57,090 nt of DNA from Lachnospiraceae bacterium (GTDB lineage Bacteria > Bacillota > Clostridia > Lachnospirales > Lachnospiraceae): contig CAJTCE010000024.1 in assembly GCA_910574745.1 (NCBI GenBank), forward strand, positions 1 to 57,090. Reading direction: 5' to 3'. Position numbers and translations under genes: made by a program. Of the stretch, positions 22,428 to 55,006 are shown piece by piece. The notes beneath the pieces were generated by a model, which did no database searches, was not told the origin of the DNA, and saw only the letters and a program-made list of their open reading frames with translations. Position 1 is the first letter of the stretch. Every line of letters begins with the position of its first letter.

Positions 22428-24437
22428 TTATAAACCATATTCTTTCATTATTTTACGGAATTCCGGCGAATTGGAAAATCCCTGCAGCACCTGGTCCCTT
22501 GTCATTTTGCCGGAATCCAGTTTGCCCAGCCAATCATAGAATCCCTGTATATCGTATTCCCTGCCTAAGAATGTTCTGTAAAGCACCTTTATATACTCTG
22601 CATTGCTTAGGTTTTTATCCAAAAACTCGCGGGAATGGAAAAAGCCTGTGGTGGCTGCATCCGTAACAGTCCATTTTTTGTCCAGAATACGGTTGCACCA
22701 GTCGTTTAAGCCACTGACATCATAGCCTCTGCCCAATGCTTTTGTATACATACGGGTTATGAAAGACGTAAGACCCGGATTACGGTCGCGCCCCTGGGTT
22801 ACTTTGACTTCTCCTCTTGTGATCCCATAGGAATTGCACAGATCATTATATTCCTTGGATTCCGCAAATCCTTTAAAGATACCTTCCCTTGTAACGCCGT
22901 TTTGCATACATGCCAGCCAGTAAGCGCTGCCGTTTGGATCCGCATTACGATCCAACATGACTTTATACAACAGATCAATAAATTCCCTGTCGCTTAAATT
23001 ACGGTTCTTTAATTCCGGACTGAAGAAAAATCCGTAAGCTACATCAGCCCCGCTTCTTTTTTTCGTCACTAAAGAGTTTTTCCAGTCAAGCATACCTCCG
23101 TCGTCAGGCTGTCTGCCAAAGCAGAGAGTATATAACCTGGTTACGAAATTAGCAACCTGATCGTCATTGGTTGCCTGGTCATCGGTTCCTCCCAAATATC
23201 CTTCCGCATTAAAGAACTCCACATTATAGGAAATGGTAACCGATTTTCCGTTTTTGTCCTTGATACCGGTAATCGTTACATTATAAACGCCGGAAAGATT
23301 TCCTTTTCCACAGGTTGCCGTCCCCGGCTTAAAAATAATGGCATTGCTCTCTCCCGCCGCCTCAAAATTAACGTTGAAATAAGGCTTTGTTATATCAAAG
23401 CGGTCTGTTGCATTATCCGCCGCCGTAAACTTCTGGACTCTTCCATCCGGTAAAGCAAGTGAAACCTTTACATTGTTTATATTCATTTTGCTGACGTCAA
23501 ACTTGTCCGGATTTAAAGAAACCGACCAGGGCGTATCTCCCTGACAGAATTCCTGCGGGAAATTTCCCGACGCAGGCCAGGAAACGAAATCATAATCCGG
23601 CGGCAATACGCCTCTATCGTCTACATACATAACAGCATAAGCCATATTGCTTTTATTGGTAGCATACCCAAATCCGGTAGAACCCATCCTGGGATTTAAA
23701 ATCCATCTTCTGTGTCCAACATTGGCCAGGTTCCCTGGCGCTTTATCTTCCATAAAGTTCTGGGTAAACCATGCAAGACTTCTCCAGGACTGATAAGACC
23801 CGCTGGCAATATTACTCTTCTGGGTAGCCGTTCTTCCCGCTACATAAAAATCATTGCTCATACCGGAGGGCTGGGACGGATAATTGTCCAACGTATTATT
23901 TGCCGCTAATATTACCGCTCCCTTCTGAGCCTGGGAGGTATATGCCGGATTGTACCCTACGGAAGGGAGCCCGGCTATCATACGCATCATATTAACGCTT
24001 TCTGTCGCCTTCTGCAAATGGATCGTTGTCAACACTCCTGCTGAATAGGGTTTCGTTACGGAAGGCGTTGTCTGATAGAAAGAATAGTTCAGCCCATAAC
24101 TGTAAAGATTCCTATATTGGCTGGCAATGTTAAATTTACTGGGTTTAGCCAAAGATAAGGAACCGCTGTAGGAATAGATTTTCTCCTCATCCAACTCCAT
24201 ATCGTTTTCGGAAAGGCTGTTTTCGGAAACATCCGTAAATACCTCTATCGATTCTTCCTCCTCGGGTATTGTATTGAGCGCCTCATCCACATAAGGCTCT
24301 CCCAATTGCACATCTTCCCTGTTTGCCGCAATCATTTCTTCCCCGTTTGCCGGTTCGGAAGCCGCCAGAACCGGTGTAGTAATGGCCGTTCCAAGCAATA
24401 ATGCCGCCAGCATACAGGAGACAAGTCTTTTTCTCAT
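22428..24437 (-). CDS. Secreted CAP-domain protein with DUF4214 tail (paralogue 1)
   Basis: A 669-residue protein. A signal peptide (1-25, ending VLAA) is followed by an acidic linker with VSENS and LSEND (70-79), then a CAP/SCP-like domain (about 140-290) containing VGHRRWILNPRMG. A beta domain (about 300-410) follows, then DUF4214 sequence (about 428-669) as four half-repeats of the form LYxxxLGRxxDxxGxxxW...GFxxSxEF, ending KEYGL. The paralogue at 26177 has LTHTPSKP where this one has LDNYPSQP, so one likely cavity His is lost. No LPxTG or membrane anchor at the C-terminus. The stop is three bases before wzm. A TATAAT box (24519-24524) lies upstream without a clear -35. Confidence 0.85.
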   Translation of the reverse strand: MRKRLVSCMLAALLLGTAITTPVLAASEPANGEEMIAANREDVQLGEPYVDEALNTIPEEEESIEVFTDVSENSLSENDMELDEEKIYSYSGSLSLAKPSKFNIASQYRNLYSYGLNYSFYQTTPSVTKPYSAGVLTTIHLQKATESVNMMRMIAGLPSVGYNPAYTSQAQKGAVILAANNTLDNYPSQPSGMSNDFYVAGRTATQKSNIASGSYQSWRSLAWFTQNFMEDKAPGNLANVGHRRWILNPRMGSTGFGYATNKSNMAYAVMYVDDRGVLPPDYDFVSWPASGNFPQEFCQGDTPWSVSLNPDKFDVSKMNINNVKVSLALPDGRVQKFTAADNATDRFDITKPYFNVNFEAAGESNAIIFKPGTATCGKGNLSGVYNVTITGIKDKNGKSVTISYNVEFFNAEGYLGGTDDQATNDDQVANFVTRLYTLCFGRQPDDGGMLDWKNSLVTKKRSGADVAYGFFFSPELKNRNLSDREFIDLLYKVMLDRNADPNGSAYWLACMQNGVTREGIFKGFAESKEYNDLCNSYGITRGEVKVTQGRDRNPGLTSFITRMYTKALGRGYDVSGLNDWCNRILDKKWTVTDAATTGFFHSREFLDKNLSNAEYIKVLYRTFLGREYDIQGFYDWLGKLDSGKMTRDQVLQGFSNSPEFRKIMKEYGL

Positions 24438-24538
24438 TTCAACATTCCTCCATTCATTTTGATGATTTGTCTGCTCTTATTTATCCGTTCGTTTATGTAT
24501 TCTTTATTCTATCTGTTTATTATAACCTTTTTATCCTC

Positions 24539-26158
24539 TTATAATCCGTACTCCTTCATGAGCGTGGCAAATTCTTCCGAATCAGAAAAGCCCCGCAGAA
24601 CCTCTTCCCTGGACATTTCGCCGTCTTTAAGCTTATTCGTCCAGTCCGCCAGTCCTTCTTCATCGTATTCTCTTCCTAAGAAAGTTTCATAAAGTACCTT
24701 TACATAGTCTTCATCGTTCAGATTCTTGTTTATAAACTCTTCAGATTCAAAGAATCCCTTTGTAGCCACATCCGTAACGCTCCATGTATGATTCAGAATC
24801 CGGCCGCACCAGTCGTTTAATCCGCCTACGTCATAGCTTCTTCCCAAGGCCTTTGTATACAGCCTGGAAACAAACATCGTGAGTCCCGTATTCAAATCCC
24901 TGCTTTCTGAAACCGAAACGCTTCCCCGCTCAATTCCATATGCCCCGCAGATCTGGGTAAATTCCGCAGACTCGGCAAAGCCTTTATATACGCCTTCCCT
25001 GGATACGCCTGCTTCCAACCGGCCAACCCAGTATTCCCTGCCGCCTTCGTCATATTCCCGGTCCATCATGACCCGGTACAATAGCTCTACAAATTCTTTA
25101 TCGCTCAAATTGCGGTTTTTCATTTCGTCGCTGAAGAAAAATCCATAGGCCACCACAGCTCCTGACTTTTCCCGTTTTATAAGCGCTTCCTTCCAGTCCT
25201 GCATTCCCCCTTCATCGGGCTGTCTTGAAAGGCAGAGATTATACAGTCTGTCCACAAATGCCTCTATCTGGGCAACATCGTCATATACCTTCATGTACTC
25301 ATCCAGATAGATTCCTGCACGCTGCTGGAGAACGCCTCCCGGATGCACGTTATCGATATAGTAGTCCCAAAAATTGCTGCCGTCTATTCCGAAGGCCGTA
25401 TTAAAATCTATAATGGTAATATGATTTCTTTCACACACCCTTTTGATGGCGTCCAGATATTGTTCAAAGGTCTGTCCGTTTTCATTTTTAATGGGATCAA
25501 ACTGGGACCTGTAATAGAACGGGAGAATACAGTAGCATTCCACGCCTTTGTTCCGAAGCCTCCTGATGGCCGTATTCATGGCCCCGCATAGCTCATAGGT
25601 ATTGGTGGAATCCACTCTTCCCAAAGGATAAGCCCTGGTAAAATCATTGACCCCGAACTGGAAAAAAGCCACATCATAAGCGGAAATATCTACCTGGTCC
25701 AATTCATAATTGATATTATGCCCCCAACGGCTTGAATAAGTGGCTCCTCCTATGGCTGCATTGGTCACGTCGGCGCTGCGCCTCTGCTGGAAAAAGTGCA
25801 CGTAAGAATAAATATCATTTCCGCTTTTATCCTTATAGCCGCATACAGTGCTGTCCCCTAAGAACAAATATCTGGTAGGCGCCGCGCTTTCTTCCGCCAT
25901 CTCGGAATCGTAAGTATGATATAAAGCCGTATCCAGACATTCCACATAAGGACAAAGGGTCTGATCCGCTTTAGGATCCTCTTCTGCGCCCTCTGCTTCT
26001 CCTGATCCCACAGAACCGGCCTGATCCGTATTTTCTTCCTGCCCCGCTTCCATGGGCACAAACCCGTTTTCGGAAACCGGAGCCGCATCCGCATTCTGGA
26101 TCGTCATAGAGCCTGTCAGCAACAACACAGCCAGCGCCAAAGCCAATTTTTTCTTCAT
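24539..26158 (-). CDS. Secreted SGNH/GDSL hydrolase with DUF4214 tail
   Basis: A 539-residue protein with a signal peptide (1-25), the VSENG motif at 28-32 and an acidic linker. The SGNH hydrolase domain spans about 95-295 with block I GDS (Ser103), block II GG (137-138), block III GVND (Asn171) and block V DNVHP (Asp269, His272). All catalytic residues are present. Such enzymes are esterases; removal of acetyl groups from surface glycan or peptidoglycan would fit the locus, though the substrate is not shown. DUF4214 half-repeats fill about 298-539 and end KEYGL. It begins 18 bases after the upstream CAP gene, with AAAGGAAG as ribosome binding site. Confidence 0.88.
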   Translation of the reverse strand: MKKKLALALAVLLLTGSMTIQNADAAPVSENGFVPMEAGQEENTDQAGSVGSGEAEGAEEDPKADQTLCPYVECLDTALYHTYDSEMAEESAAPTRYLFLGDSTVCGYKDKSGNDIYSYVHFFQQRRSADVTNAAIGGATYSSRWGHNINYELDQVDISAYDVAFFQFGVNDFTRAYPLGRVDSTNTYELCGAMNTAIRRLRNKGVECYCILPFYYRSQFDPIKNENGQTFEQYLDAIKRVCERNHITIIDFNTAFGIDGSNFWDYYIDNVHPGGVLQQRAGIYLDEYMKVYDDVAQIEAFVDRLYNLCLSRQPDEGGMQDWKEALIKREKSGAVVAYGFFFSDEMKNRNLSDKEFVELLYRVMMDREYDEGGREYWVGRLEAGVSREGVYKGFAESAEFTQICGAYGIERGSVSVSESRDLNTGLTMFVSRLYTKALGRSYDVGGLNDWCGRILNHTWSVTDVATKGFFESEEFINKNLNDEDYVKVLYETFLGREYDEEGLADWTNKLKDGEMSREEVLRGFSDSEEFATLMKEYGL

Positions 26159-26176: not shown

Positions 26177-28192
26177 TTATAATCCGTACTGCCGCATGAT
26201 ATCGGCAAATTCCCTGGAACCGGAAAACCCTCTTAAAACCTCGTCCCTGGATTTTTGTCCCGAATTCAATTGACTTACCCAGTCATTCAATCCCGGCTTA
26301 TCATATTCCCTGTCAAGAAATGTCCGATAGAGCACCTTGACATATTCCTCATTGCTTAAGTTTTTATTTTCAAACTCCGGAGAATGAAAGAATCCCGTCG
26401 TAGCCGCATCCGTAACGCTCCAGGAGCCGCCCGCAATCCGGTTGCACCAGTCGTTGAGACCGCTTATATCATAAGGTCTTCCCAAGGCCTTTGTATAGAG
26501 CCTTGATACAAACAGGGTAACCCCCATATTGAGATCGCGCCCTTGATTGACCGCCACATATCCCCGCTCAATACCGTAAGAACTGCAGATATCAGTAAAC
26601 TCCGCAGATTCCGCAAAGCCCTTGTATACGCCTTCCCTGGATACTCCCGCCGAAAGCTTCTCCAGCCAATATTCCTTTCCCGATGCATCAAAGGCCCGGT
26701 TCATCATAACCTGATATAACAGCTCCACAAAAGCTTCATCACTTAGATTGCGAAGCTTCATTTCATCACTGAAGAAAAATCCATAGGCAACCCCTGCACC
26801 TGACTTGGACTTATCCGCCAGAGCTTTTCTCCAGTAAATAAAGCCGTCGTCATCCGCTTCCCTGCCAAAGCAAAGAGTGTAGAGCCGCTCGATAAATCCG
26901 TTGATTCCTTTATCATTGACCGCTTCATTATCGTCGCCGCCCATATAGTAAAGAGCGCTGAAAAAATCAATGTTGTAGGAAACCTTTGCAGGCGCTCCGT
27001 CCCTTGTATGTAAACCGCTGACGGTAACCGTATAAACGCCCTTTAAATCATTATTTCCAAACACGCCTGTTCCCGGTCTGAATATAATGGCATTTGCAAT
27101 GCCGTATCCGTTTTTGTCAATATTGAAATAGGCCTGGTCTTTATTCCCCACATTGCCTGCCGTATCCGAAGCGGTAATGGTCTGACTCCTTCCGTCAGGC
27201 GCAGTTACGGTAACCTGAACATTTCCCGTGTTCATCCCCGCAATATCAAACTTATCGGGATTTAAGGTTACATGCCACGGCATCTGCATATCGGCAAATT
27301 CCGAAGGAAAATTCCCCGATGCAGGCCATGAAATAAAGTCATAGTCCGGCGTAGCCCCGTTTCTATTGAAAGCATACATCGCCGAATATGCTGCGTTTCT
27401 GGAGCTTAAGGCAAATCCAAAGCCCGTATATCTCATAGAGGGATTTAAAATCCAACGCCTATGCCCTACAACCGACACGTTATTGGCTCCTGAATCTTCC
27501 ATATAGCCCATGGTAAAACGCGGCATATTGAAATACGAATCCGAACCGGACATCCAGCCGTAGGCAATATTGCTCTGAGATGTGGCCTTATAACCCTCTT
27601 TGTAAAACTCATCATCCATACCCGCCGGTTTTGACGGCGTATGGGTCAGGGTATCATTTGCCGCAAGCACTACCGCCCCATACTGGGTCAATTCATTGTA
27701 GGTATCATGAAGGTATACTTCAGGCAGTCCCGCTATCATTCTCATAAGATTTACGCTGTCTAAAGCCTTCTGTCTGTGTTTTGCCGATACCTGTCCCAGA
27801 GAATACGGAGGCGTTGTATTCGGCCTTACATCAAGAAGGGGAAACTCTTCCCCGTAAGTATAATAAAGTCCGTTGGTTATGTCAGCCTTTGAAGGCTTTC
27901 CAAAGGCCAGGGTCCCGCTATAGGAATAAACGCTTTCCTCCTGTAGGGAGCAGTCGTTTGCGGACACCGCATTTGCAGATACATCCGATTCCCCGGAAGT
28001 CCCGCTTTCCCTTAAGGGCTCGTTTTCTTCCTCATAGGATTCATCTACAACCGCTTCGCCGGTATCCATCCCTTCCAGATTAAAGGTTTCCGTCAACCGG
28101 CTGCTCTCTTTGGCGTTTACCGTAACCGGCGTTAAAACGTTACAAGCAGTAATAAGCAGCGCTAAGGCGCCTGCCAAATATCTTTTCTTCAT
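26177..28192 (-). CDS. Secreted CAP-domain protein with DUF4214 tail (paralogue 2)
   Basis: About 671 residues. The start was taken at the ATG at 28192 (MKKRYLAGAL), with GAGGGGA upstream. The order is signal peptide, acidic linker with two adjacent motifs VSANA and VSAND (71-80), SYSGTLAFGKPSK, CAP domain, beta domain, and DUF4214 tail (about 430-671) ending RQYGL. The CAP domain keeps both signature regions, LTHTPSKPAGM and VGHRRWILNPSM, so it looks intact, unlike paralogue 1. Bacterial CAP proteins act extracellularly, and their biochemical role is mostly unknown. A plausible promoter lies at 28228-28256, overlapping the end of the subtilase gene. Confidence 0.87.
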   Translation of the reverse strand: MKKRYLAGALALLITACNVLTPVTVNAKESSRLTETFNLEGMDTGEAVVDESYEEENEPLRESGTSGESDVSANAVSANDCSLQEESVYSYSGTLAFGKPSKADITNGLYYTYGEEFPLLDVRPNTTPPYSLGQVSAKHRQKALDSVNLMRMIAGLPEVYLHDTYNELTQYGAVVLAANDTLTHTPSKPAGMDDEFYKEGYKATSQSNIAYGWMSGSDSYFNMPRFTMGYMEDSGANNVSVVGHRRWILNPSMRYTGFGFALSSRNAAYSAMYAFNRNGATPDYDFISWPASGNFPSEFADMQMPWHVTLNPDKFDIAGMNTGNVQVTVTAPDGRSQTITASDTAGNVGNKDQAYFNIDKNGYGIANAIIFRPGTGVFGNNDLKGVYTVTVSGLHTRDGAPAKVSYNIDFFSALYYMGGDDNEAVNDKGINGFIERLYTLCFGREADDDGFIYWRKALADKSKSGAGVAYGFFFSDEMKLRNLSDEAFVELLYQVMMNRAFDASGKEYWLEKLSAGVSREGVYKGFAESAEFTDICSSYGIERGYVAVNQGRDLNMGVTLFVSRLYTKALGRPYDISGLNDWCNRIAGGSWSVTDAATTGFFHSPEFENKNLSNEEYVKVLYRTFLDREYDKPGLNDWVSQLNSGQKSRDEVLRGFSGSREFADIMRQYGL

Positions 28193-28227
28193 CCTGCATC
28201 CCCTCTCAAAAAACAATTACCGCAACT

Positions 28228-28256
28228 ATTATACTCCTTTTTATCATTACAGTCCA
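28228..28256 (-). promoter_or_regulatory. Possible internal promoter before CAP paralogue 2
   Basis: TGGACT (28251-28256), a 17-base spacer and TATAAT (28228-28233) on the minus strand, 35 bases upstream of the ATG at 28192. The -10 box is perfect and the -35 is weak (4 of 6). Confidence 0.4.
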
Positions 28257-30388
28257 TATTTTGCCATTAAATCAGCAAATTCACGGGAATCTGCAAAGCC
28301 CGCTATGATCCTGTCCCTGCTTTCCCCCCTGCTCAGTCTGGAGAGCCAGTAATAAAGTCCCGCTTCATCATACTCTCTGTTTAAAAAGGTTCTGTACAAT
28401 ATTTTCACAAATTCCAAATTAGAAGTATTTTTATTTAAAAATTCCCGGGAATGGAAAAAGCCTTCTGTAGCCACCCTGTAGGGAGTCCAGTTCCGGTTTA
28501 TGAGCCTGTCGCACCAGTCGTTCAAGCCATCCTCATCAAAAGACCTGCCCAGGGCCTTTTCATACATCCTGACTACAAATGCCGTCGTCTGCTGATTTTG
28601 ATCCCTCATCTGCCCTGTAAGAACAGTTCCCGAACCAAAGCCGCAATTTGAACAAATTTCCGTAAACTCCGCCGATGCGCTGAAGCCATTCATGACATAT
28701 TGTCTGGACATGCCGTTTTCCAGCTTTGATACCCAGTCCGCTTTTCCCCCCTCATCAGGCTTGCGCGCCAGAAAAACGCGGTATAAAAGCTCCACAAACG
28801 CCTCGTTACTTAGATTACGGCTTTTTAATTCCTCACTAAAGAAAAATCCGAAAGCAACCTCTCCGCCATTCTCCCTGCCGGATTCCAGTCTCTCTGTCCA
28901 ATCAGCAAGTCCTGACCCATCCGCCTCCCTATTTAAGCAATAGCGGTAAAGCCTTCTTACAAAGCTTTCCGCAGAATCGGGCAGTACATCCGGCACTTCC
29001 GGTTCGGAAGGATCCGGCAGTTCTCCTGAAGCATACCGCATCTCCACCGCTCTTTCCACCGCCTTATCCGCCGCCACGATTCCCCAGCCCGAATAGGCGT
29101 CAAAGCCCGGAGAATAAGTATCTGTAGCGGTCTTTGCCAATATGTTTTTCACATCTTCCACCGACAGGGAAGGATTTACGGCCCATACAGCTGCCGCAAC
29201 TCCCGAAACCACTCCCGCGCTCATGGAAGAGCCGCCCATATAACCATAGCCGCCATTAGGGAGCGTGCTTAAAATCCTGTCTCCCGGGGCGGAAATGAAA
29301 TTATCCGTACCGTAGCTTGCATCGCTTCTTTTGGCTCCGCTCTCCCCTGTAGCAATAACGCCTATGGCCGAGCTGTATGCCGAAGGATAATGCTTCCGGT
29401 CCGTTCCGTCATTTCCCGCGGAACATACAATCAGGATTCCCCGGTTATAAGCGTTCTCCATGGCCGCCTTTAAAAGTCTGTCCTCCTGATTCATTCCCAT
29501 GCTCATATTAATAATATCCGCATCCTGTTCCGTTGCAAACTGAATGGCATTTACCACATAAGAAGACAGCATATTCCTTCCGTCATGGCTCTGGATGGCA
29601 ATGATTTCCGCATAATTGTTGGAAATTCCCGCAATGCCCCGTCCGTTTCCCGTAACAGCTCCGATAATTCCTGCTACGTGGGTTCCATGTCCGTTAACGG
29701 AATAATCACTGCTTATTCTGGGATAATTGGTGGTAACGGAGTTGACGCATAAAGCCGCATTCACATTCGCGTTTAAGTCTGCATGGTACAAATCGATTCC
29801 GCTGTCAATGACCGCTACCCGCACCTTTTTACAGGGCACGGTTTCCATAAGGCTCCATGCCTGTTCCATATTTAAAGAATCCAGATACCACTGCTCATAA
29901 TACCTGGCGTCGTTTACAGCCTCTCCCTGCAGTTTTGGTTCTTCCAACTCATAGATATAATTGGGCTGGGCAAAAGCCACGCCGGGCACCTCCGAATAGA
30001 ATTCCACTGCCTCCTCCACGCTCATGTCATCCTCAATATCCATAACCGCGAACTGAACCCCGTCGTCGTCTCCCGTAATTTCTTCTTCAATTCCTTCCAG
30101 GCTGAGTGTGGCAATTCCCACATCCTCCAAAACAAGAATGACCTCTCCCGAAGCATAATCCACGCCTTCGGTTCCTTCCGGTTCTTCCGTTCCTTCGGTT
30201 TTTCCGATTTCAGGATTTTTTACCGCTGCAGGAACAGATTCTTCCTCCATGCCATTTGCAGAAACGTTCCCTTTTCCTTCCGAAGAAACTATTTCCGCCG
30301 CATTCGTGATTACCATGCCCTTATCGCACAAAAGGGTGGCAATTATGATTGCCACCGCTATTCGTTTAAAATACTTTATTTTTTTCAT
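28247..30388 (-). CDS. Secreted subtilisin-like serine protease (S8) with DUF4214 tail
   Basis: About 713 residues from the ATG at 30388, whose ATG overlaps the upstream TGA (ATGA). It has a signal peptide, the VSANG motif (42-46), an acidic linker and a propeptide-like region (about 76-150, ending GVAFAQPNYIYELEE). The peptidase S8 domain has catalytic Asp195 (VIDSGID), His234 (NGHGTHVAG), oxyanion Asn326 (SAGND) and Ser388 (GGSSMSAG), so it looks active. The DUF4214 tail (about 470-713) ends AKYGL. As the only protease among the tailed proteins it could process the others at the surface; that is inference. Confidence 0.92.
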   Translation of the reverse strand: MKKIKYFKRIAVAIIIATLLCDKGMVITNAAEIVSSEGKGNVSANGMEEESVPAAVKNPEIGKTEGTEEPEGTEGVDYASGEVILVLEDVGIATLSLEGIEEEITGDDDGVQFAVMDIEDDMSVEEAVEFYSEVPGVAFAQPNYIYELEEPKLQGEAVNDARYYEQWYLDSLNMEQAWSLMETVPCKKVRVAVIDSGIDLYHADLNANVNAALCVNSVTTNYPRISSDYSVNGHGTHVAGIIGAVTGNGRGIAGISNNYAEIIAIQSHDGRNMLSSYVVNAIQFATEQDADIINMSMGMNQEDRLLKAAMENAYNRGILIVCSAGNDGTDRKHYPSAYSSAIGVIATGESGAKRSDASYGTDNFISAPGDRILSTLPNGGYGYMGGSSMSAGVVSGVAAAVWAVNPSLSVEDVKNILAKTATDTYSPGFDAYSGWGIVAADKAVERAVEMRYASGELPDPSEPEVPDVLPDSAESFVRRLYRYCLNREADGSGLADWTERLESGRENGGEVAFGFFFSEELKSRNLSNEAFVELLYRVFLARKPDEGGKADWVSKLENGMSRQYVMNGFSASAEFTEICSNCGFGSGTVLTGQMRDQNQQTTAFVVRMYEKALGRSFDEDGLNDWCDRLINRNWTPYRVATEGFFHSREFLNKNTSNLEFVKILYRTFLNREYDEAGLYYWLSRLSRGESRDRIIAGFADSREFADLMAKYGL

Positions 30389-32583: not shown

Positions 32584-32627
32584 AATTTCCTCCTTCATCC
32601 TTGGCTGTTTTTACATCATACACAGTA

Positions 32628-44437: not shown

Positions 44438-45261
44438 TTTTCTACCTTCAATTCCTTATCATAGCAAAGATTTCCAAAGGCCTTGTTGACCAGTCTGCCA
44501 TACTTTCCTTTTGTTTTCCCGACGCATCGGATGGCGGGATTAAAAAGCCTTGTCAAACGCACTTTCTTCCCTCTTTCCGCCGCAATATCCTGTACCATTT
44601 TTGCCGTATTTCCATACCCGGAATCCTGGGGAAAATAAACGCCGCTTTCAGGCTTTGCTATTATCATTTCCACCGCTTTGGCAAGGTTTTCCACGGACAA
44701 AACGCTTCTTTCGTTTTCTATGGCGGGAAAAAACGGCAATACCTTTGCCAATTTCTCCAGTGTACGGTAATTCCCTTTACAGCCCTTACCGTAAATCATG
44801 GGCGGCCTCAAAATCGCTATTTGAAAATCCCCGTCAGCAAGCGGTTTTAAGCCTTCCTCCGCCTTTACCTTGCTGTCCCCGTAAAAATTGGCGGGCGTAA
44901 GAGGCGTGTCCGCCTTTATGACCCTTTTTTTCCCTATGCCGCCGCTTTCGCCGTAAACAATAATGCTGCTCATAAATACAAATAAACCAACGCCCTGTTC
45001 CTTTGCCCTTTTTGCCGTTTCCACCGCCAGTCGACAGTTTATGTCATAGTATCTTTCCTTTTCCTCATTTGAAACCTTTTCCACATCGGCATGGGCGATT
45101 CCCGCCACATGAAATACGGCATCATATGGAGAAAAATCGTATTCCTTCCAGGCATTCCCCCTCATATCAATGGTGTCCACCTGATACGATCTTTCCACAA
45201 GATACCGTTCCACATTCGTTCCTATATAACTGTTTTTACCGGTTATGAGTATTTTTTTCAC
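44425..45261 (-). CDS. NAD(P)-dependent extended SDR, probable 4-keto sugar reductase/epimerase
   Basis: A 278-residue protein with a Rossmann N-terminus (ILITGKNSYIGTNVERYL), the SDR catalytic Ser in VFMSSIIVYGESGG and the Tyr-x3-Lys motif in NFYGDSKVKAEE. It is shorter than typical UDP-glucose epimerases (about 330). It overlaps the phosphoglycosyl transferase gene by four bases (ATGA). Directly after a 4,6-dehydratase and a PGT, a 4-reductase role giving QuiNAc or FucNAc fits; in Rhizobium etli WreQ acts on the lipid-linked keto sugar. That function is inference from order. Confidence 0.75.
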   Translation of the reverse strand: MKKILITGKNSYIGTNVERYLVERSYQVDTIDMRGNAWKEYDFSPYDAVFHVAGIAHADVEKVSNEEKERYYDINCRLAVETAKRAKEQGVGLFVFMSSIIVYGESGGIGKKRVIKADTPLTPANFYGDSKVKAEEGLKPLADGDFQIAILRPPMIYGKGCKGNYRTLEKLAKVLPFFPAIENERSVLSVENLAKAVEMIIAKPESGVYFPQDSGYGNTAKMVQDIAAERGKKVRLTRLFNPAIRCVGKTKGKYGRLVNKAFGNLCYDKELKVEKWNP

Positions 45262-45857
45262 TCTTTCATCGCTCCCGTACCGCCTTCTACAACGCCTTCG
45301 CTTTTCAGCACGCTTAAAAAGGTTCCGAAAAAGCAGCGCAAATCCATGAAAAATCCCATTTTTTCTTTATATTCCCCGTCCAACCGGGCTTTTAGCGGGA
45401 TTTCCAGTTCATCCCTGCCGTTAATCTGCGCCCAGCCCGTCAGTCCGGGCCTGATGTCATTCGCCCCGTACTTATCACGCTCTTCGATTAAATCATACTG
45501 ATTGTAGAGGGCCGGTCTCGGACCCACCACCGCCATATCCCCCTTTAAAATATTAATCAGCTGGGGCAATTCATCCAAGCTTGTCTTACGTAAGAATCTG
45601 CCGGTCTTAGTAATATACTGCTCCGGGTTTTTCAGAAGATGCGTGGGCATATCCTTGGGCGTATCCGTCCGCATGGTTCTGAATTTTAAGATCATAAAAT
45701 GCTTTTTGTGGATTCCCACCCGCTTTTGCTTAAAAAATACCGGGCCTTTTGATTCCCCTTTAATGGCAATGGCCAAAATCAAAAAAACAGGAGAAAGCAC
45801 AAGCAGTCCTATAAGCGAAAGCAAAAAATCCACAATGCGTTTCCATTTCTGATACAT
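45258..45857 (-). CDS. Small phosphoglycosyl transferase (PglC/WcaJ C-domain type)
   Basis: A 199-residue monotopic membrane enzyme. It has an N-terminal reentrant hydrophobic helix (about 8-32, with SP at the bend), FKQKRVGIHKKHFMILKFRTM, the catalytic TSLDELPQL and VVGPRPALYNQ. It transfers a sugar-1-phosphate from UDP-sugar to undecaprenyl phosphate, starting the lipid-linked chain. It lacks the extra N-terminal membrane domain of WbaP. GGAGGAG precedes the ATG at good spacing. Its neighbours, dehydratase upstream and SDR downstream, suggest a 6-deoxy-HexNAc first sugar. Confidence 0.92.
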   Translation of the reverse strand: MYQKWKRIVDFLLSLIGLLVLSPVFLILAIAIKGESKGPVFFKQKRVGIHKKHFMILKFRTMRTDTPKDMPTHLLKNPEQYITKTGRFLRKTSLDELPQLINILKGDMAVVGPRPALYNQYDLIEERDKYGANDIRPGLTGWAQINGRDELEIPLKARLDGEYKEKMGFFMDLRCFFGTFLSVLKSEGVVEGGTGAMKE

Positions 45858-47849: not shown

Positions 47850-47963
47850 TTTAACATCATTACTTCCTAAAGTAAATATTTCTTGGCATTCATCCCCAAT
47901 TTCATCCCCTGATTCAAACAGATTCCGCCTCAAACCGCTGCCGTTTATATTGCGGATTCCTGC

Positions 47964-48132: not shown

Positions 48133-50412
48133 TTACAGTCCGAAGGATGCTTTCAGTTCCGCAAACTCTCTGGAGTTGGCAAAGCCCAACATAACTTCAT
48201 TTCTGCTTGTCCCCTTTGCCAGTCTTCTCATCCAGTCATCATAGCCCGCCTGATCATATTCCCTGTCAAAGAATGTGCGGTAAAGAACCTTCACATATTC
48301 ATCGTCGCTTAAATTCTTTGCCAAAAATTCCGGGGAAGTAAAGAATCCTGTTGTGGAAACGTCATTAATGGACCATTGTCCGCTGGTAATACGGTTACAC
48401 CAGTCATTTAAGCCGTCAACCTCGTATTCCCTGCCCAGCGCCTTTGTATAAAGCCTTGCCACAAAGGTGGTAAGTCCGGGGTTTTTATCCCTTCCTTCTA
48501 ATCCGTCAACATTAATGCTTCCTCTGATGATGCCGTAATCATTACATATGTTGCCAAATTCTGCGGATTCCGCAAAGCCCCTGTATACGCCTTCTCTTCC
48601 GACTCCATTGTTGAGCTTGTATACCCAGTCGGCTTTTCCGCCTTCATCGGAAGCACGGCCCATCATAACATTATATAATAATTCCACATACTCTTCATTG
48701 GTGGTATTCCACAGTTCAAATTCAGCGCTCAAGAAAAATCCGCGTGCCGCTTCCGCTCCGGAAATCTGGCCGTTGCATAACCGGTTGGTCCAGTCTGCAA
48801 GTCCTGTTTCTTCAGGCTGTCTTTTCAGACACATTTCATAAAGTCTTGTAACAAAGGCCTCTACCTGCGCCCTGTCCGTAACTCTTCCATAGCCCGGTAC
48901 AATCTCTGAATAAGAGCTTACTCCTATGGTAGGCAGGGTCTGGGACTCAACCCACGCCGGATCGGAATCCAGCCTTGCAAACACATCCCCTGCAAGAACG
49001 CCTGCAATGGAGAAATTTAATTTTCCGCCTTCATTGGCCTGATTAATAATGAAGCAGTCCACCATGGAGTCATATTTTGCCGCATAATAGGAATATGCCA
49101 GACTTGCCGCCTGGATATTGGTTCCCATATACTGGGAGAATCCCTGCTCCGTCAATAAAATCCTATGCTGGGCGCCAAAGGTATTTTTTACATAATCGGT
49201 CATAATGCTTAAATTATTCCCGTCGACAAATTGAGCGTCCGCTCTCTTGGGATTTAAGTCAATTTCCGGCGCATCAGGCATATGAGCAAGCTCCACCCAG
49301 ATATCCGGCTGTGATAAAATAGCGGGATATAGATGGTAGGAAATGCTCCAGTCCACATTGGCCTGCCTTGCTGCAACAGCGGCATTGAAACGGTCCAAAT
49401 AATCCTTTGTGGAAATTCCTCTGCCCTCGTCATTGTGCTGCCAGCTGTGGTCTAAGGAAACGCTGACCCTTGACACAGATGTTTTGGAGCGGATCGCGTT
49501 ATAGAGGATCATATAAGCATCCGCATACAGATCGACGTTATACTGTGGATCCGAACTGCCGCTAAAACACCATGAATTGGGCATGTTTACTTCATTTCCC
49601 AAAATAAAATTATCTACATGGCAGTCCTCTTTACACCAGTTTTCCGCCATCCATGCAAAAAGCGCCTCATAATAATGTCTGCCCTCTCCTCTGACATTGG
49701 GCGCGTAATATGGAGAATTTTTGGTATTATTTCCCCTATTGGCCAAAGCCTGGGCATCTATCAGGATCTCTTTATTGGATTTATAGGGAACCAGGATAGT
49801 CATGCTGACCGTAGCGCCCTTTGCATTGGCGTTTTTGATCAGTGTGGAAAAGGTATCCCTAAAATAATAGGTACGACCGTTATAATCAAATCTTTTATCT
49901 GTGTGGATTGTACCGTCGCCCATAAAATCCGTAACGCGGAGATTAAGCAGGGTATGTTGTCCGCCGTAGCTGCCTATATAATCCGCTCCGTTAAAATCTC
50001 CCTGAACGCCCTTTTTGGTTGTTGTTTTGGCAAAGGCATCCTCGGTCACATAGCTGCCGGCCTCCTCGGAATATACATATTCCTCGTCGTCAAGCCATTC
50101 TGTGGGAATTCCGTTATAGGTTTCCAAAGGGTCTTCCCCTTCTTTGCCCAGTTTAATTTCCTCTTCTTCGTCCTCTTTCTCTTCCTCTTTCTCTTCCTCT
50201 TTCTCTTCCTCTTCTTTCTCTGCTTCCTCTTTATCCGTATCCACAGCGTTCTTTTCACTGTTTTCAGAAACAGAAGACTCGTTTTCCGGCATTAAGCCGT
50301 TTGTTCCTGTCTGCTCTCCTGCAAATGCGGTAACTCCGTTTCCCGCCATAAGCAGCATCGCAAGAAACAGGGCAAATACTCTTTTTGATAGTTTTCTCAT
50401 CCTTATGCTCAT
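48133..50412 (-). CDS. Secreted TIM-barrel glycoside hydrolase-like protein (DUF5722-like) with DUF4214 tail, paralogue 1
   Basis: About 759 residues from the ATG at 50412, with GGGAGGAAAGGTG upstream; an ATG 14 codons earlier would spoil the signal peptide start. It has a signal peptide (to about 31), VSENS (48-52), a Glu/Lys-rich stretch (60-87), then a TIM-barrel-like domain (about 95-505). That domain has two candidate catalytic acids, Glu274 in ILGNEVNMP and Glu422 in LLTEQGFS, placed as in clan A glycoside hydrolases. The DUF4214 tail (about 516-759) ends ASFGL. The family name is from memory of DUF5722 and is less sure than the clan. Substrate unknown. Confidence 0.8.
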   Translation of the reverse strand: MSIRMRKLSKRVFALFLAMLLMAGNGVTAFAGEQTGTNGLMPENESSVSENSEKNAVDTDKEEAEKEEEEKEEEKEEEKEDEEEEIKLGKEGEDPLETYNGIPTEWLDDEEYVYSEEAGSYVTEDAFAKTTTKKGVQGDFNGADYIGSYGGQHTLLNLRVTDFMGDGTIHTDKRFDYNGRTYYFRDTFSTLIKNANAKGATVSMTILVPYKSNKEILIDAQALANRGNNTKNSPYYAPNVRGEGRHYYEALFAWMAENWCKEDCHVDNFILGNEVNMPNSWCFSGSSDPQYNVDLYADAYMILYNAIRSKTSVSRVSVSLDHSWQHNDEGRGISTKDYLDRFNAAVAARQANVDWSISYHLYPAILSQPDIWVELAHMPDAPEIDLNPKRADAQFVDGNNLSIMTDYVKNTFGAQHRILLTEQGFSQYMGTNIQAASLAYSYYAAKYDSMVDCFIINQANEGGKLNFSIAGVLAGDVFARLDSDPAWVESQTLPTIGVSSYSEIVPGYGRVTDRAQVEAFVTRLYEMCLKRQPEETGLADWTNRLCNGQISGAEAARGFFLSAEFELWNTTNEEYVELLYNVMMGRASDEGGKADWVYKLNNGVGREGVYRGFAESAEFGNICNDYGIIRGSINVDGLEGRDKNPGLTTFVARLYTKALGREYEVDGLNDWCNRITSGQWSINDVSTTGFFTSPEFLAKNLSDDEYVKVLYRTFFDREYDQAGYDDWMRRLAKGTSRNEVMLGFANSREFAELKASFGL
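50152..50235 (-). repeat. Purine/pyrimidine-biased microsatellite coding for a Glu/Lys stretch
   Basis: About three 12-base units of CTCTTTCTCTTC on the plus strand, plus flanking degenerate copies, encode KEEEKEEE-type sequence at residues 60-87 of the glycoside hydrolase. The tandem paralogue at 50586 lacks this stretch, so the repeat appears to have expanded after duplication. Confidence 0.75.
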
Positions 50413-50585
50413 ACTTGCACCTTTCCTCCCAGTTTTATTTTTTATAATTATCATATATTTCTGTTGTGGAAGTCAAGTCCCTTATTTCCAAAAACTATCA
50501 ATTCACAAAACAACGCTCCCTATTTCTCTAAAAAATTTCACAACCATCTATCCTTATGGGCGGGAAAACGCCGGATTTTACTGCT

Positions 50586-52835
50586 TTATAAGCCATAGCT
50601 TTTCATCAGCGCCGCAAACTCCGGTGAATTGGCAAATCCTGCCAAAACTTCATCCCTGCCGGCTCCGCCCGCCAGTCTGTTCATCCAGTAATCATAGCCG
50701 TCTCCGTCATATTCGCGGTCGAGGAAGGTTCGGTACAACACTTTTACGTATTCGTCGTTGCCTAAATTCCTGTTACAAAATTCCGGAGAGTTGAAAAATC
50801 CCCGTGTGGACACATCATAAATACTCCAGGAACCTCCGAGGATCCGGTTGCACCAGTCGTTTAGTCCCTCTGTTTCATAGGTTCTTCCCAAAGCCTTTGT
50901 ATAAAGCCTCGCTATAAAGGTGGTAAGTCCCGGATTTTTATCGCGCCCTTCCGAAACAGTTACCGTTCCCTTTTCAATCCCATAGGAATTACAGATCATC
51001 TCAAACTCCATAGATTCCGCAAAGCCTCTGAACACGCCTTCTCTTCCCACGCCGTTATTAAGCTTATGTACCCAATCCGCCTTTCCCGCCGCATCGGAGG
51101 AACGCCCCATCATAACATTATAAAGCAGCTCTACAAACTCCTCATTTCCCAAATTCCTGAGCTTAAACTCATCGCTGAAGAAAAAACCGTAAGCTGCCTG
51201 GGCTCCCTTTGCCTTTCCTCTGTAAAGCCTGTCAATCCAGTCCGCCTCTCCTCTAGCATCCGATTTTCTGTTAAGGCATAGCTTATAAAGCCTTTCCACA
51301 TAGCTTTCCAAGCCGGCCCTGTTCACATTCCTTCCATATCCGGGCACAATCTGTCCGAAAGAAGGGATGCCTATTACGGGAAGAGTCCTTGCCTCCACCC
51401 ATCCCGGATCGGAGTCTGCCTTTTCATATACGGTCTGGGCCAGCTTGCCGGCAATATAAAAGTTCTGTCCGGGCTTCTCATTTTCCTCATGTATGATGAA
51501 ACAGTCCACCATCGGATCATATTTTGCCGCATAATAAGACAGAGCCAAGGAAGCCGCCTGAACCTCTTGACCAAACACATCGGAAAATCCCTGTTCCGTC
51601 AGCATAACCCTGTGGTGTGGGCCGAAGGTATCCCTGATATAATCCGTCATAACACTTAAATTATATCCGTCCACAAACTGAGCGCCGTCATTTTTGGGAT
51701 TTAGTTTTAGGGCTATGGCATGTCCTTTGTCCGCCCAGATATCCGGCTCATAAAGAAGCGCCGGATACAAGTGGCAGGAAACCGTCCAGTCCACATCCGC
51801 CTGTCTTGCCGACACGCATGCATGAAACCGGTTCAAAAAATCTTTTGCCATGATTCCTCTTCCCATATTATTATGCTGCCAGCTGTGGTCTATGGATACG
51901 CTGACCCTGCAGGCGGAGGTTTTGGCTCGAACGGCGTTATAAAGCATCAGATACTCTTCCGCATACAGCTGCGCATTATACTGCGGGTCAGCAGTTCCTG
52001 TAAAATTCCATTCATTGGGCATATTGACCTCATTGCCCAGAATAAAATTATCCACATGGCAGCTTTCCAAACACCAGTTTTCCGCCATCCAGGCAAACAT
52101 CGCCTCATAATAATGCCTTCCCTCTCCCCGTATATTGGGAGCGTAATAGGGCGATTCCCTGTTTTGATTCCGGTTTGCCAAAGCTGTGGGATCTACCAGA
52201 ATTTCTTTATTTTTTTTGAGAGGCACCAAAATCACGATACTGATCGTTCCGCCTTTTGCATTGACGTCCTGTATCAGAGGGGATTTGTCATCCCGAAACC
52301 AATATGTACGGCCGTTATAATCAAAACGTTTGTCTAAAGGATGATGCCCGTCTCCCATAAAGTCCGTCACATTGATATTGATCAACGTGTGCCTGGAATC
52401 ATAAGAGGCTTTATAGGAAGCCCCGTTAAAATCTCCCTGTATGCCCTTTTTGGTAGAAGCCCTGTAAAAAGCATCCCGAGTCAGGTAATTCCCCGACTCA
52501 GGATTATAAATAGATTCTTCACTTTCATTAAGCCACTCTGTGGGAATGCCGTTATAGGTTTCTAAGGGATCCTCTCCCTCTTTTCCGATTTCCCATCCGT
52601 TTTCATTTTTCCGGCTGTTTTCGGAAACTGCCGCTTTCTGTTCCGGCTCTTCTCCCACATACAGACTTTCTGCCGCCGTATCTACAGTTTCCGCACCTGT
52701 GTTTTCCACATCTGCGGCCATGGCTACAACCGGCATACCTGCCATTGCGGCAACGCTCCCTGCTTCCAATGCAAAAATGACTGCAAGAAAAGCGGATAAC
52801 GTTTTTCTATAGATTGTCTGGTAATTTTCTTTCAT
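50586..52835 (-). CDS. Secreted TIM-barrel glycoside hydrolase-like protein (DUF5722-like) with DUF4214 tail, paralogue 2
   Basis: About 749 residues from the ATG at 52835; a TTG at 52847 with AAGG upstream is an alternative. It has a signal peptide (to about 41), VSENS (70-74), then the same barrel domain as the 48133 product. Glu269 lies in ILGNEVNMP and Glu414 in MLTEQGFS, with shared blocks such as NGIPTEWL, KKGIQGDFNGA and RGEGRHYYEAMFAWMAENWC. The DUF4214 tail (about 508-749) ends KSYGL. Tandem duplication with paralogue 1 is clear. It would act outside the cell on a polysaccharide, possibly the product of this locus; that is inference. Confidence 0.8.
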   Translation of the reverse strand: MKENYQTIYRKTLSAFLAVIFALEAGSVAAMAGMPVVAMAADVENTGAETVDTAAESLYVGEEPEQKAAVSENSRKNENGWEIGKEGEDPLETYNGIPTEWLNESEESIYNPESGNYLTRDAFYRASTKKGIQGDFNGASYKASYDSRHTLININVTDFMGDGHHPLDKRFDYNGRTYWFRDDKSPLIQDVNAKGGTISIVILVPLKKNKEILVDPTALANRNQNRESPYYAPNIRGEGRHYYEAMFAWMAENWCLESCHVDNFILGNEVNMPNEWNFTGTADPQYNAQLYAEEYLMLYNAVRAKTSACRVSVSIDHSWQHNNMGRGIMAKDFLNRFHACVSARQADVDWTVSCHLYPALLYEPDIWADKGHAIALKLNPKNDGAQFVDGYNLSVMTDYIRDTFGPHHRVMLTEQGFSDVFGQEVQAASLALSYYAAKYDPMVDCFIIHEENEKPGQNFYIAGKLAQTVYEKADSDPGWVEARTLPVIGIPSFGQIVPGYGRNVNRAGLESYVERLYKLCLNRKSDARGEADWIDRLYRGKAKGAQAAYGFFFSDEFKLRNLGNEEFVELLYNVMMGRSSDAAGKADWVHKLNNGVGREGVFRGFAESMEFEMICNSYGIEKGTVTVSEGRDKNPGLTTFIARLYTKALGRTYETEGLNDWCNRILGGSWSIYDVSTRGFFNSPEFCNRNLGNDEYVKVLYRTFLDREYDGDGYDYWMNRLAGGAGRDEVLAGFANSPEFAALMKSYGL

Positions 52836-52930
52836 GTCTTTTCTCAATACAACCTTTTATCGTCCTGTGCTTTTGTTTTCTTGTCCTTTCATTGTATCAA
52901 TCTCTTGTTCTTATACCGCTTATCATTCCG

Positions 52931-55006
52931 TTATAATCCGTAGGATCTCATCAGTTCCGCAAACTCCCGGGAATCCGCAAAGCCTCTGAGCACTTCTTTC
53001 CGGCTTGTACCGGCATTTAACTTCCGAAGCCAGTAAACATAACCGTCCTGATCATACTCTCTGTCAAAGAATGTCCGGTACAGCACCTTTACGTATTCAC
53101 TATTGGTATGGTGCATGTTCAAATATTCGGGAGAATTAAAGAATCCCGTAGTAGCCATATCCATAACAGTCCATTTCTTATCACAGATTCTGTTGCACCA
53201 TTCATTTAAACCGTCAATATCATAGGCTCTTCCCAAAGCTTTTGTATACATTCTGGATACAAAAGTGGTCAGTCCCGGATTTCTGTCACGGCCCTCACTG
53301 ACAGCTACGGTTCCTTTTTTTATTCCATAAGAATTACAAATCATTTCAAACTCGGCAGAATCCGCAAAGCCTTTAAAGACGCCCATACGTCCCACACCGT
53401 TTTCTAATTTGTACAGCCAGTCCGCTTTTCCTGCATAGTCAGAGCCTCTGCCCATCATAACATTATATAAACGCTCCGTATATTCCTCATTGCCATGGTT
53501 CATAAGCAAAAACTCTTCGCTGAAAAAGAATCCTAACGCCGCATCCGCACCTGTAGTCCGGCCGCTGCACATTCTGTCCGTCCAGTCCTTAAGACCATCC
53601 GCATCCGGTTCTCTTCCCAGGCACAGTCTGTAAAGTCTGGTCACATACGCCTCCACCTGTGCCCTGTCAACCGCAGGTCCCTTGGTCAATCCCAGATAGT
53701 TGGCAATTCCCGTAGCGTCTGCAGCTCCCAAACGCTGTAAATTACTTTCCCGTGAAAGGAATGCAGCATCCGATGCATTTGTTAAAAATGCATGCTCCAC
53801 AATAATGGCCGTAATACCCGCTTCCTTGGAACGTCTGATAACGCCGTAATAATCTGCTAAAGAACCGTCAGGATACTTTGTATTGTCTCCGGAATTTCGT
53901 ATAAGGATTCCTCTTTGATTCAATCCAAGCGCCCCTAACTGTCTGGAAATATGTCTTGCCAGGTTTGCTCCGTCAACTCCGATAGCCGCATTATAATTGG
54001 AATTGGGATAATAAATTTCCGATCCCTTTGCCGATGATCCCGCTGAATTTAAATGGATACTTACAAAGTAGTCGGCTCCCACCCGGGCTGCCGCCTCCAC
54101 TCTATTTGCATTACAGGTGGTAGAAGTAGTTCCCGGGTAAGGACATGCCGTTCCCGTACGCGTCATATACACCTGTACTCCTGAATATTCTTCCAGCTCC
54201 GCTTTGCAATACTGGGCAATTTTTAAGGTAAGAGCCTCTTCCCTTAAGCCGTTCGCCCTGGCTCCCGCATGGGTGGCGTCATGGCCCGGATCGATCACTA
54301 CAACAACTTCGCCATTATCTTCCGCTCTCAGCCTGCCCTTATCGCCGTTTGCAAGAGCATCTCCAATTTCATTCGCCGCTATTCTGGAAACCTGACTGTC
54401 GTCTCCATTGAAAGACACAACCTGTAATTCCACATCGGAAATATCAAAATCCGCGCTCTCCTGCATCAGCGCGCCTTCTTCCGATTCAGGCACCTCCCGG
54501 TCCACGCCGAAATATACGTTCGCCATGCCTGTATCCTTTATCCCGACAGAAGTTTCATTCCCGTCCTGTGTAATAACATTCACACTTTTTACTTCATAAA
54601 TTCCTGCATTCTCTTTCAGAAAAGGAAGTTCAAATAAAATAGTATTTTCTAACGTTTCTTCACTTGAATAGACGAACTGTTCCTTTGTATGGTAATTTTC
54701 AACCGTTAATGTACCGCCGGTAAGGCAGGTATTCTCATCTCCAAATCCAATTAACACTCTCTGGCTGCCCGGAGAAGCAATATAATTGTTTTCTATATAT
54801 AAAAAGTCTAACTTTCCTTCTGTTCCAAAAGTATCCGCTTCCGTTTTTTCCTCTTCGGGAAGCTTCTCATCTCCGGCTTTTGTCAAATCCTCCACCGGCT
54901 CTACTCCATTTCCTGATACTTCTTTGGCAAAAACACTTTGAGGCATCATTCCCAAAAGAATTGTAAATATCACGAAAACCGCTAAAAATCTTGTTACCTT
55001 TTTCAA
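52931..55006 (-). CDS. Secreted N-acetylmuramoyl-L-alanine amidase (Amidase_3) with DUF4214 tail
   Basis: A 691-residue protein with a TTG start at 55006, preceded by AAGGTGGT. It has a signal peptide (1-27), VSGNG (30-34) and a beta domain (about 65-170). The Amidase_3 domain spans 234-440: zinc ligands His242 (DPGHD), Glu257 and His318 (SIHLN), catalytic Glu404 (VEHAFLTN). All are present, so it should cut the amide between muramic acid and the peptide stem. The DUF4214 tail (about 450-691) ends RSYGL. First of the three secreted genes here; its promoter region holds stacked inverted repeats (55162-55208). Confidence 0.9.
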   Translation of the reverse strand: MKKVTRFLAVFVIFTILLGMMPQSVFAKEVSGNGVEPVEDLTKAGDEKLPEEEKTEADTFGTEGKLDFLYIENNYIASPGSQRVLIGFGDENTCLTGGTLTVENYHTKEQFVYSSEETLENTILFELPFLKENAGIYEVKSVNVITQDGNETSVGIKDTGMANVYFGVDREVPESEEGALMQESADFDISDVELQVVSFNGDDSQVSRIAANEIGDALANGDKGRLRAEDNGEVVVVIDPGHDATHAGARANGLREEALTLKIAQYCKAELEEYSGVQVYMTRTGTACPYPGTTSTTCNANRVEAAARVGADYFVSIHLNSAGSSAKGSEIYYPNSNYNAAIGVDGANLARHISRQLGALGLNQRGILIRNSGDNTKYPDGSLADYYGVIRRSKEAGITAIIVEHAFLTNASDAAFLSRESNLQRLGAADATGIANYLGLTKGPAVDRAQVEAYVTRLYRLCLGREPDADGLKDWTDRMCSGRTTGADAALGFFFSEEFLLMNHGNEEYTERLYNVMMGRGSDYAGKADWLYKLENGVGRMGVFKGFADSAEFEMICNSYGIKKGTVAVSEGRDRNPGLTTFVSRMYTKALGRAYDIDGLNEWCNRICDKKWTVMDMATTGFFNSPEYLNMHHTNSEYVKVLYRTFFDREYDQDGYVYWLRKLNAGTSRKEVLRGFADSREFAELMRSYGL

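Follow-up and report, generated by a model that had tools for sequence, protein, structure and literature searches.

Choline-binding repeats, which bind choline on teichoic acid, and SLH repeats, which bind pyruvylated wall polymer, are established non-covalent wall-retention modules. In E. coli O8 and O9a, glycans are exported in an ABC-dependent manner by Wzm/Wzt, with recognition by the Wzt_C domain and with WbdD as the capping enzyme. In C. difficile, a proposed anionic-polymer locus is located immediately downstream of the slpA/cwp locus of CWB2 clients (Willing et al. 2015, PMC4973711). In segmented filamentous bacteria, whose genomes are poor in other wall-binding domains, DUF4214 has been described as a likely surface-anchoring domain found on a number of predicted surface proteins (PMC12780176), and an S-layer-anchoring idea for the domain has been relayed for another organism (PMC11970703). 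The passages of this literature that mention DUF4214 name no exporter or glycan ligand, and those of PMC12780176 no gene cassette. Here we analyse a DNA stretch of 57,090 nucleotides (hereafter the window) from a gut Lachnospiraceae bacterium (GenBank assembly GCA_910574745.1, contig CAJTCE010000024.1), in which the genes of secreted proteins with a common C-terminal DUF4214 tail share one run with those of glycosyltransferases and of a Wzm/Wzt exporter bearing Wzt_C. The sequence evidence leads us to favour, with a probability of about 0.62, the reading that the tail holds secreted enzymes non-covalently on the glycan exported by the Wzm/Wzt of this locus. Surface anchoring by DUF4214 has already been proposed, from segmented filamentous bacteria; the cassette of polymer and clients is new.

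The DUF4214 tail and the modules that take its place

A preliminary description of this DNA had reported eight secreted proteins sharing a DUF4214 tail, the last of them encoded three bases from wzm. All eight open reading frames (ORFs) were recovered at the positions given there, on the minus strand and with a common tail of ~240 residues, and the three-base gap to wzm was confirmed. The tailed proteins and the exporter, which we named type A, are as follows.

52931..55006, minus strand: Amidase_3 with DUF4214 tail, opening gene of the run (Pfam; tails of orthologues)
50586..52847, minus strand: DUF5722 hydrolase-like domain with DUF4214 tail (Pfam; SLH in the tail slot of an outside relative)
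48133..50454, minus strand: DUF5722 hydrolase-like domain with DUF4214 tail (Pfam)
30385..32598, minus strand: Atl/SagB-type glucosaminidase with DUF4214 tail (Pfam for the tail; NCBIfam; autolysin structures)
28247..30427, minus strand: S8 subtilase with DUF4214 tail (Pfam)
26177..28216, minus strand: CAP-domain protein with DUF4214 tail (Pfam)
24539..26158, minus strand: GDSL/SGNH hydrolase with DUF4214 tail (Pfam)
22428..24437, minus strand: CAP-domain protein with DUF4214 tail, adjoining wzm (Pfam)
21648..22424, minus strand: Wzm-type ABC exporter membrane subunit, type A (Pfam ABC2_membrane; distribution)
20350..21648, minus strand: Wzt-type ATPase with C-terminal Wzt_C, type A (Pfam ABC_tran and Wzt_C; comparison with type B)

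PF13946 was matched in all eight proteins, with whole-protein E-values from 6.9e-48 to 2.1e-61 and scores of 161–204 bits against a Pfam cut-off of 23.2, in four stretches in seven proteins and in three in the amidase. The four half-repeats that had been described align in every tail, 35 columns are invariant across 14 tails, and the other seven window tails are 42–66% identical to the first; E-values of ~1e-50 and the 35 invariant columns rule out a chance or low-complexity origin of the common ends. The ends are mostly YGL, as had been noted (six of eight), with FGL in the 48133 protein and YGI plus seven further residues in the 30385 protein. Signal-peptide-like starts were read from the sequence of all eight, and Pfam found only DUF4214 in their tails, with no SLH, choline-binding, CWB2, GW or ChW module. 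The catalytic assignments of the preliminary description were supported, by Pfam matches to CAP (22428 and 26177), GDSL/SGNH (24539), DUF5722 (48133 and 50586), Amidase_3 (52931) and S8 with a Fervidolysin-like prodomain (28247); its statement that the domains are unrelated has to be reduced to six enzyme kinds instead of eight, since the two CAP and the two DUF5722 proteins form pairs outside which the non-tail parts are unrelated. DUF4214 is the sole Pfam match of the 30385 protein, which matches the NCBIfam SagB glucosaminidase model at 1e-8, below that model's cut-off, and the autolysin structures 6fxo and 4pi7.

The same architecture recurs in other genomes. In the loci examined, 159 distinct and complete tailed proteins were counted outside the window and assessed by simple heuristics. 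A start resembling a signal peptide is present in 152 of them, in 142 the C-terminus lies no more than 13 residues beyond the last repeat, 10 have a possible membrane stretch beyond residue 60, and none has LPxTG within the last 60 residues. Pfam was applied to 69 proteins from outside the genus of the window genome, taken from 137 of suitable length with genus members, redundant and some long proteins omitted. Among the best 25 of 31 families in this set were CAP (8 proteins), beta-helix (6), LRR, GH25 and transglutaminase (3 each), GH5 (2), and amidase, deacetylase, YkuD, GHL10 and DUF5722 (one each). A repeated terminal module common to secreted proteins with otherwise unrelated domains, and without a sortase signal, fits a retention module. 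Clients such as the amidase, glucosaminidase, GH25, GH5, polysaccharide deacetylase, YkuD and DUF5722 proteins are wall or glycan enzymes, as would be expected if the tail brought enzymes to the exported polymer to assemble it, trim it or attach it to the wall, and not for retention as such; we consider this very improbable, as the S8 protease, CAP, LRR and beta-helix clients have no obvious part in polymer assembly and the modules found in the same slot of amidase orthologues (see below) are general retention repeats.

Evidence that the tail is a retention module comes above all from orthologous enzymes. Searching 392 genomes of the order with the window amidase (E<=1e-45) gave matches in 23 genomes. 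Besides the window genome, nine matches span both the N-terminal and the catalytic region (E 6e-88 to 4e-55; 38–46% identity), and the remaining 13 cover the catalytic part only, one of which, in G395, was scanned and consists of the catalytic domain alone. Six of the nine orthologues carry a choline-binding tail, one (G314) a ChW tail and one (G332) DUF5648; the ninth, in G373, runs off the fetched stretch, as do four of the choline-tailed proteins, so that these ends are partly visible, and its Pfam matches include Y_Y_Y only and no wall module. A Wzm match at E<=1e-40 was obtained in 34 of the same 392 genomes; judged by genome label, these include none of the eight with choline-binding, ChW or DUF5648 tails but do include G373, with a Wzm only 32% identical. 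Within the genus, DUF4214 is replaced in the amidase of the sister species G005 by seven GBS_Bsp repeats together with a glucosaminidase domain, with a second exporter type (type B, see below) beside the gene and a divergent Spo0A-like regulator close by, and a contig-edge fragment of G004 is 70% identical to the C-terminal end of the G005 protein. For DUF5722, 46 of 299 genomes gave a match. One protein per genome was scanned in the ten outside genomes that matched best: the tail slot holds SLH in G987, and the G906 protein has a DUF4214 end (E 3e-9). DUF4214 is thus interchangeable between species with known retention modules on both the amidase and the DUF5722 enzymes. That such modules occupy its slot in orthologues argues that DUF4214 does the same job, and is the strongest evidence for it. 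Taken alone, the role of surface-retention module, as the preliminary description had suggested, is highly probable from these sequence comparisons.

The identities among tails are weakly compatible with a shared ligand: paralogous tails within a genome have mean identities of 48–54%, while tails of different species are 42–49% identical when non-orthologous and 50–57% when orthologous (outside the close pairs G000/G001 and G007/G003). The phycobilisome linker PF00427 was matched at <=1e-5 in 2 of the 69 proteins, and the tail profile matched ApcE in the PDB at an E-value of 0.05 only. Matches to choline-binding repeats were absent from nine genus genomes and numbered 0 to 11 in 26 tail-carrying genomes, the high-copy comparison genomes of this count having been picked for their choline tails. 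Many tailed proteins of the window genome and of G001 have a short VSxN motif (VSGNG, VSENS and others) after the signal peptide, and it is also present in an untailed secreted protease of G004; the places noted include 52931-55006 and 30385-32598 in the window, and L059:828-5855. The motif occurs in 15 of the 159 tailed proteins and in 2 of 88 other secreted proteins of the loci examined, and is mostly lineage-specific.

Association of the tail with one exporter type

Nine genomes of the genus were compared. DUF4214 was found in seven of them (33 to 78 domain matches) and was absent from G004 and G005. Wzt_C is present in all nine, in two types. The type B Wzt occurs in every member, with an ATPase part 75–100% identical among members, whereas the type A Wzt_C of the window was found in six of the seven DUF4214-positive genomes and in neither of the two negative ones. 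Co-presence of any Wzm/Wzt is too weak an explanation, since every genus member has some Wzt_C; the link of the tail is to one exporter subtype. In the five other genus genomes with type A, the tailed amidase, DUF5722, glucosaminidase and S8 proteins stand in the window order around glycosyltransferases and wzm-wzt. In G000 and G001, the 20 kb surrounding the type B exporter showed no tailed protein.

More widely, DUF4214 is rare, being found in 11 of 392 genomes of the order (three better than 1e-15) and in 4 of 398 drawn from the phylum. A scan of named genomes with the tail alignment gave 76 loci from 31 genomes, of which five were omitted because their contigs match genus members (G001, G002, G003, G007 and G008), and the other 26 were searched for Wzm. 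Tail loci were present in the cultured Butyrivibrio proteoclasticus P18, Anaerobium acetethylicum GluBS11, Catenibacillus scindens DSM 106146 and Frisingicoccus caecimuris DSM 28559, and also in metagenome-assembled genomes labelled Erysipelotrichaceae and Solobacterium. A type A Wzm was identified in 22 of the 26 genomes, full-length at 53–64% identity in 20 and split between contig ends in two. At >=50% identity, type A Wzm occurs in 24 of the 392 order genomes, two with multi-copy DUF4214 (G000 and G310), two with a single DUF4214 (G262 and G286) and 20 without; a frequency of 22/26 against a background of 22/390 gives a Fisher p of 1e-20, uncorrected for kinship.

The two are also neighbours. 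Of 21 type A wzm neighbourhoods (all of the 22 but G807), 16 have a tailed protein no more than 10 kb away, including those of the four cultured isolates. In the remaining five, the nearest tailed protein of G797 is at 10.03 kb, the contigs of G798 and G794 are shorter than 9 kb, G810 is at a contig edge, and G815 has no tailed protein within 20 kb. Other wzm genes of the same tail-carrying genomes have a tailed neighbour in 2 of 19 stretches (19 of 20 matches, from 15 of the 26 genomes, some stretches being short), against the 16 of 21 at type A (Fisher 3e-5). Around type A loci of genomes without multi-copy DUF4214, as expected, no tailed protein was found in 21 stretches (21 of 22; G026 left out). 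The preliminary description had suggested a survey of genomes for multi-copy DUF4214-tailed proteins together with Wzt-tail exporters, and the survey made here shows both co-occurrence and linkage with the type A exporter. The contrary finding that it had envisaged, DUF4214 secretomes being common where no exporter is linked, does not hold for this tail subfamily, apart from the 4 of 26 genomes in which type A is missing.

A conserved set of glycosyltransferases as a signature of the ligand was also considered and gave nothing firm. Three families (36612, 33822/37836 and 32669/35385/39434) occur near 13, 15 and 14 of 25 tail-positive type A loci and near 3, 5 and 4 of 21 tail-negative ones (p 0.012–0.019), and nine others gave p >=0.054. 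This comparison is not relied on, as the stretches are unequal (mean 27 kb and 17 kb) and the nine other families show no clear difference. In a tree of the Wzt ATPase part, built without the tail-positive G792, G797 and G805, the tail label needs at least eight changes, only two of which are forced by well-supported branches. DUF4214 is also matched, weakly, by a protein of 219 residues (L177:4907-5563) that Butyrivibrio proteoclasticus P18 encodes among glycosyltransferases, ~3 kb downstream of wzt.

Several observations weigh against the glycan of the type A exporter as the ligand. Four of the 26 tail genomes (G800, G803, G806 and G811) have no clear type A Wzm (none or <=36% identity), and in the fragmented genus genome G006, which has tails, type B Wzt_C alone was seen. 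Conversely, 22 of the 24 type A order genomes are without multi-copy tails; a type A exporter is thus not sufficient for tails, being usually present without them in the order draw. The link to type A is not exclusive either: in G002, G003, G007 and G008 the type B exporter likewise has a tailed protein at a distance of up to ~5 kb. Four further DUF4214-tailed proteins of the window genome are encoded outside the locus (two on contig C2, one each on C16 and C22). The glycosyltransferase content near type A exporters varies and Wzt_C is just 24–37% identical between more distant type A species, so that a single conserved ligand is not obvious. As to the tail itself, 8 of the 10 scanned outside DUF5722 relatives have no C-terminal module, and choline-binding repeats stand alongside DUF4214 in 3 of the 69 proteins; an earlier idea that the two are mutually exclusive was dropped for this last reason. 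The counted tails were found by a pattern close to the tails of the window, so the result applies to this tail subfamily and does not cover distant DUF4214 proteins.

The clients outside the locus, the tailed neighbours of type B exporters and the tail genomes without type A Wzm would all be accommodated if the tail were a retention module for peptidoglycan or another wall polymer, with the Wzm/Wzt clustering reflecting a general surface-gene island. We consider this unlikely, because other wzm genes rarely have a tailed neighbour while those of type A mostly do, because the two genus members lacking both type A and tails do carry type B, and because it leaves unexplained the DUF4214 domains in apparently cytoplasmic glycan enzymes beside wzt, described below. 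Given retention, the glycan of the locus is the probable ligand of the tail on these sequence data; the ligand claim of the preliminary description is thus supported by strong co-distribution and linkage across genera, and, as an association, this suggests the link and does not prove it.

DUF4214 in glycan enzymes and the remaining genes of the run

Among more distant genomes, ten proteins with a weak match to one DUF4214 domain were examined. Seven are SAM methyltransferases (G600, G262, G034, G287, G129, G059 and G489), and the other three are a GT4 glycosyltransferase (G752), a 168-residue stub (G286) and an SRP54-type GTPase (G250), whose match lies below the cut-off and is probably due to chance. 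In the first five genomes, which by group codes represent four families, the methyltransferase gene directly follows wzt (L066:6819-8432, L067:8004-9569, L074:7480-9231, L075:7518-9329 and L076:7122-9047, each with an internal DUF4214). By eye, no signal peptide was seen in the six sequences inspected, five DUF4214 methyltransferases and the GT4 protein. The Wzt encoded beside the methyltransferase in G034, G129 and G287 gave no Wzt_C match. These methyltransferases resemble chain-capping proteins of ABC-dependent glycan systems, of which WbdD is one, and in the window their place after wzt is taken by the hexapeptide acetyltransferase at 19156-20337.

Tentatively, and with rather less confidence than in the retention reading, DUF4214 may be a domain that reads one class of ABC-exported glycan, on the inner as well as the outer side of the membrane, with polymer genes and clients forming a self-contained surface-display cassette in several Bacillota lineages. 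On the cytoplasmic side, DUF4214 within methyltransferases or a glycosyltransferase, several of them beside wzt, would hold the growing or finished chain; on the outer side, tandem DUF4214 tails would hold enzymes on that same chain, and the amidase and DUF5722 enzymes would have exchanged choline-binding, ChW, SLH or GBS_Bsp tails for DUF4214.

The host genome (4.35 Mb in 106 contigs, 99.6% complete) has the window as its contig C24. From 55006 to 82, 37 minus-strand ORFs follow each other with small gaps or overlaps in a single direction, and the sole break is a gap of 1416 bases with the plus-strand ORF 10072-11199. ABC2_membrane adjoins ABC_tran with Wzt_C among glycosyltransferases in the Pfam matches, which fits the Wzm/Wzt exporter class. 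The remaining features are as follows.

55703..56485, plus strand: Spo0A-like response regulator, divergent from the amidase (Pfam; same place in G001 and G005)
45951..47933, minus strand: CapD/FlaA1-like nucleotide-sugar 4,6-dehydratase (Pfam Polysacc_synt_2)
45258..45857, minus strand: initiating phosphoglycosyltransferase (Pfam Bac_transf)
44425..45261, minus strand: sugar-nucleotide epimerase/dehydratase (Pfam)
32669..44437, minus strand: glycosyltransferases, nine in all (GT4 except for one GT2), with two small coiled-coil-like proteins (34928, 39031) (Pfam)
19156..20337, minus strand: hexapeptide acetyltransferase next after wzt, its long N-terminus repeated and coiled-coil-like (Pfam Hexapep)
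15459..18755, minus strand: protein with three GT4 domains (Pfam)
970..15443, minus strand: membrane GT-C-like proteins (970, 4303, 8275, 11239, 13452), GT2 (6728, 12741) and GT4 (3125)

The acetyltransferase, whose NCBIfam acetyltransferase matches are below cut-off, is a possible glycan-capping enzyme. In the 970..15443 region Pfam gave PMT_2 at 4303 besides the GT2 and GT4 matches; Pfam matches are lacking for the proteins at 970, 8275, 11239 and 13452, which are read as GT-C-like from sequence alone. These genes are likely involved in assembly or decoration of the glycan outside the membrane. The ORF at 7712-8314, with an FGPY-type C-terminal domain, overlaps the GT-C-like ORF 8275-9822 in a different frame, and the gene looks split, since the similar proteins at 4303 and 13452 carry both parts in a single ORF. 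Small hydrophilic proteins that appear coiled-coil-like are encoded between the glycosyltransferases (18755-19159, 34928-35401 and 39031-39474); Pfam gave a weak FliD_C match for the one at 34928 and nothing for those at 18755 and 39031, and relatives of the 34928 and 39031 proteins recur near type A exporters.

S-layer glycosylation clusters combine an ABC exporter, a phosphoglycosyltransferase and glycosyltransferases, a toolkit like that of the window, and the tail might accordingly be seen as a glycan acceptor, with an S-layer-type glycan ligated to the DUF4214 proteins. Pfam matches of the 39 window ORFs include no O-antigen-ligase-type domain, a soft negative as several membrane proteins of the window match nothing in Pfam. 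DUF4214 is also found inside methyltransferases and a glycosyltransferase, and we regard the acceptor role as the most doubtful of the alternatives. As regards a wall-linked secondary polymer of the LCP-dependent kind, the Pfam matches include no LCP ligase, the search being confined to the window.

Under the favoured reading, retention on the exported glycan, the glycan would be built in the cytoplasm on a lipid carrier by the glycosyltransferases of the run, judging from their families. It would probably be capped and exported via Wzm/Wzt, and from what is known of the family Wzt_C would read the cap as the determinant of selectivity. The tailed enzymes, presumably secreted by their signal peptides, would then be captured at the wall by the exported glycan. 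If the tail is held on the glycan that the locus makes, the locus is a cassette of an anchor polymer and its clients.

Comparison with known systems

Through this analysis a domain of unknown function acquires a role that can be tested and a candidate pathway for its ligand, and as four cultured isolates carry the cassette, the ligand question is open to direct test. It further suggests a rule that can be read from genomes, in which tail type goes with exporter type, and a way of retaining enzymes without sortase signals in some gut Firmicutes. The findings are relevant, too, to segmented filamentous bacteria, in which DUF4214 proteins are suspected of acting as anchors.

Compared with E. coli O8 and O9a, the window likewise has Wzm, Wzt with Wzt_C and, after wzt, a modifying enzyme with a coiled-coil-like region, but the host is of Gram-positive type and this enzyme is a hexapeptide acetyltransferase. 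Choline-binding (PF01473, PF19127), SLH (PF00395) and ChW (PF07538) modules resemble DUF4214 in following the same catalytic domains in orthologues, and differ in being absent from the eight window tails. The nearest precedent in logic is the arrangement of CWB2 proteins and anionic polymer in C. difficile. There too a repeated non-covalent module is found on many surface proteins, with a proposed polymer locus adjoining the clients, whereas CWB2 belongs to another family and the flippase of the polymer locus is MviN-like, a word search of that report's text finding neither Wzm nor an ABC transporter named for it (PMC4973711). Recognition of the polymer PSII has been reported for CWB2 (PMC4973711), while for DUF4214 the gene arrangement described here points to a corresponding, putative binding of the exported glycan.

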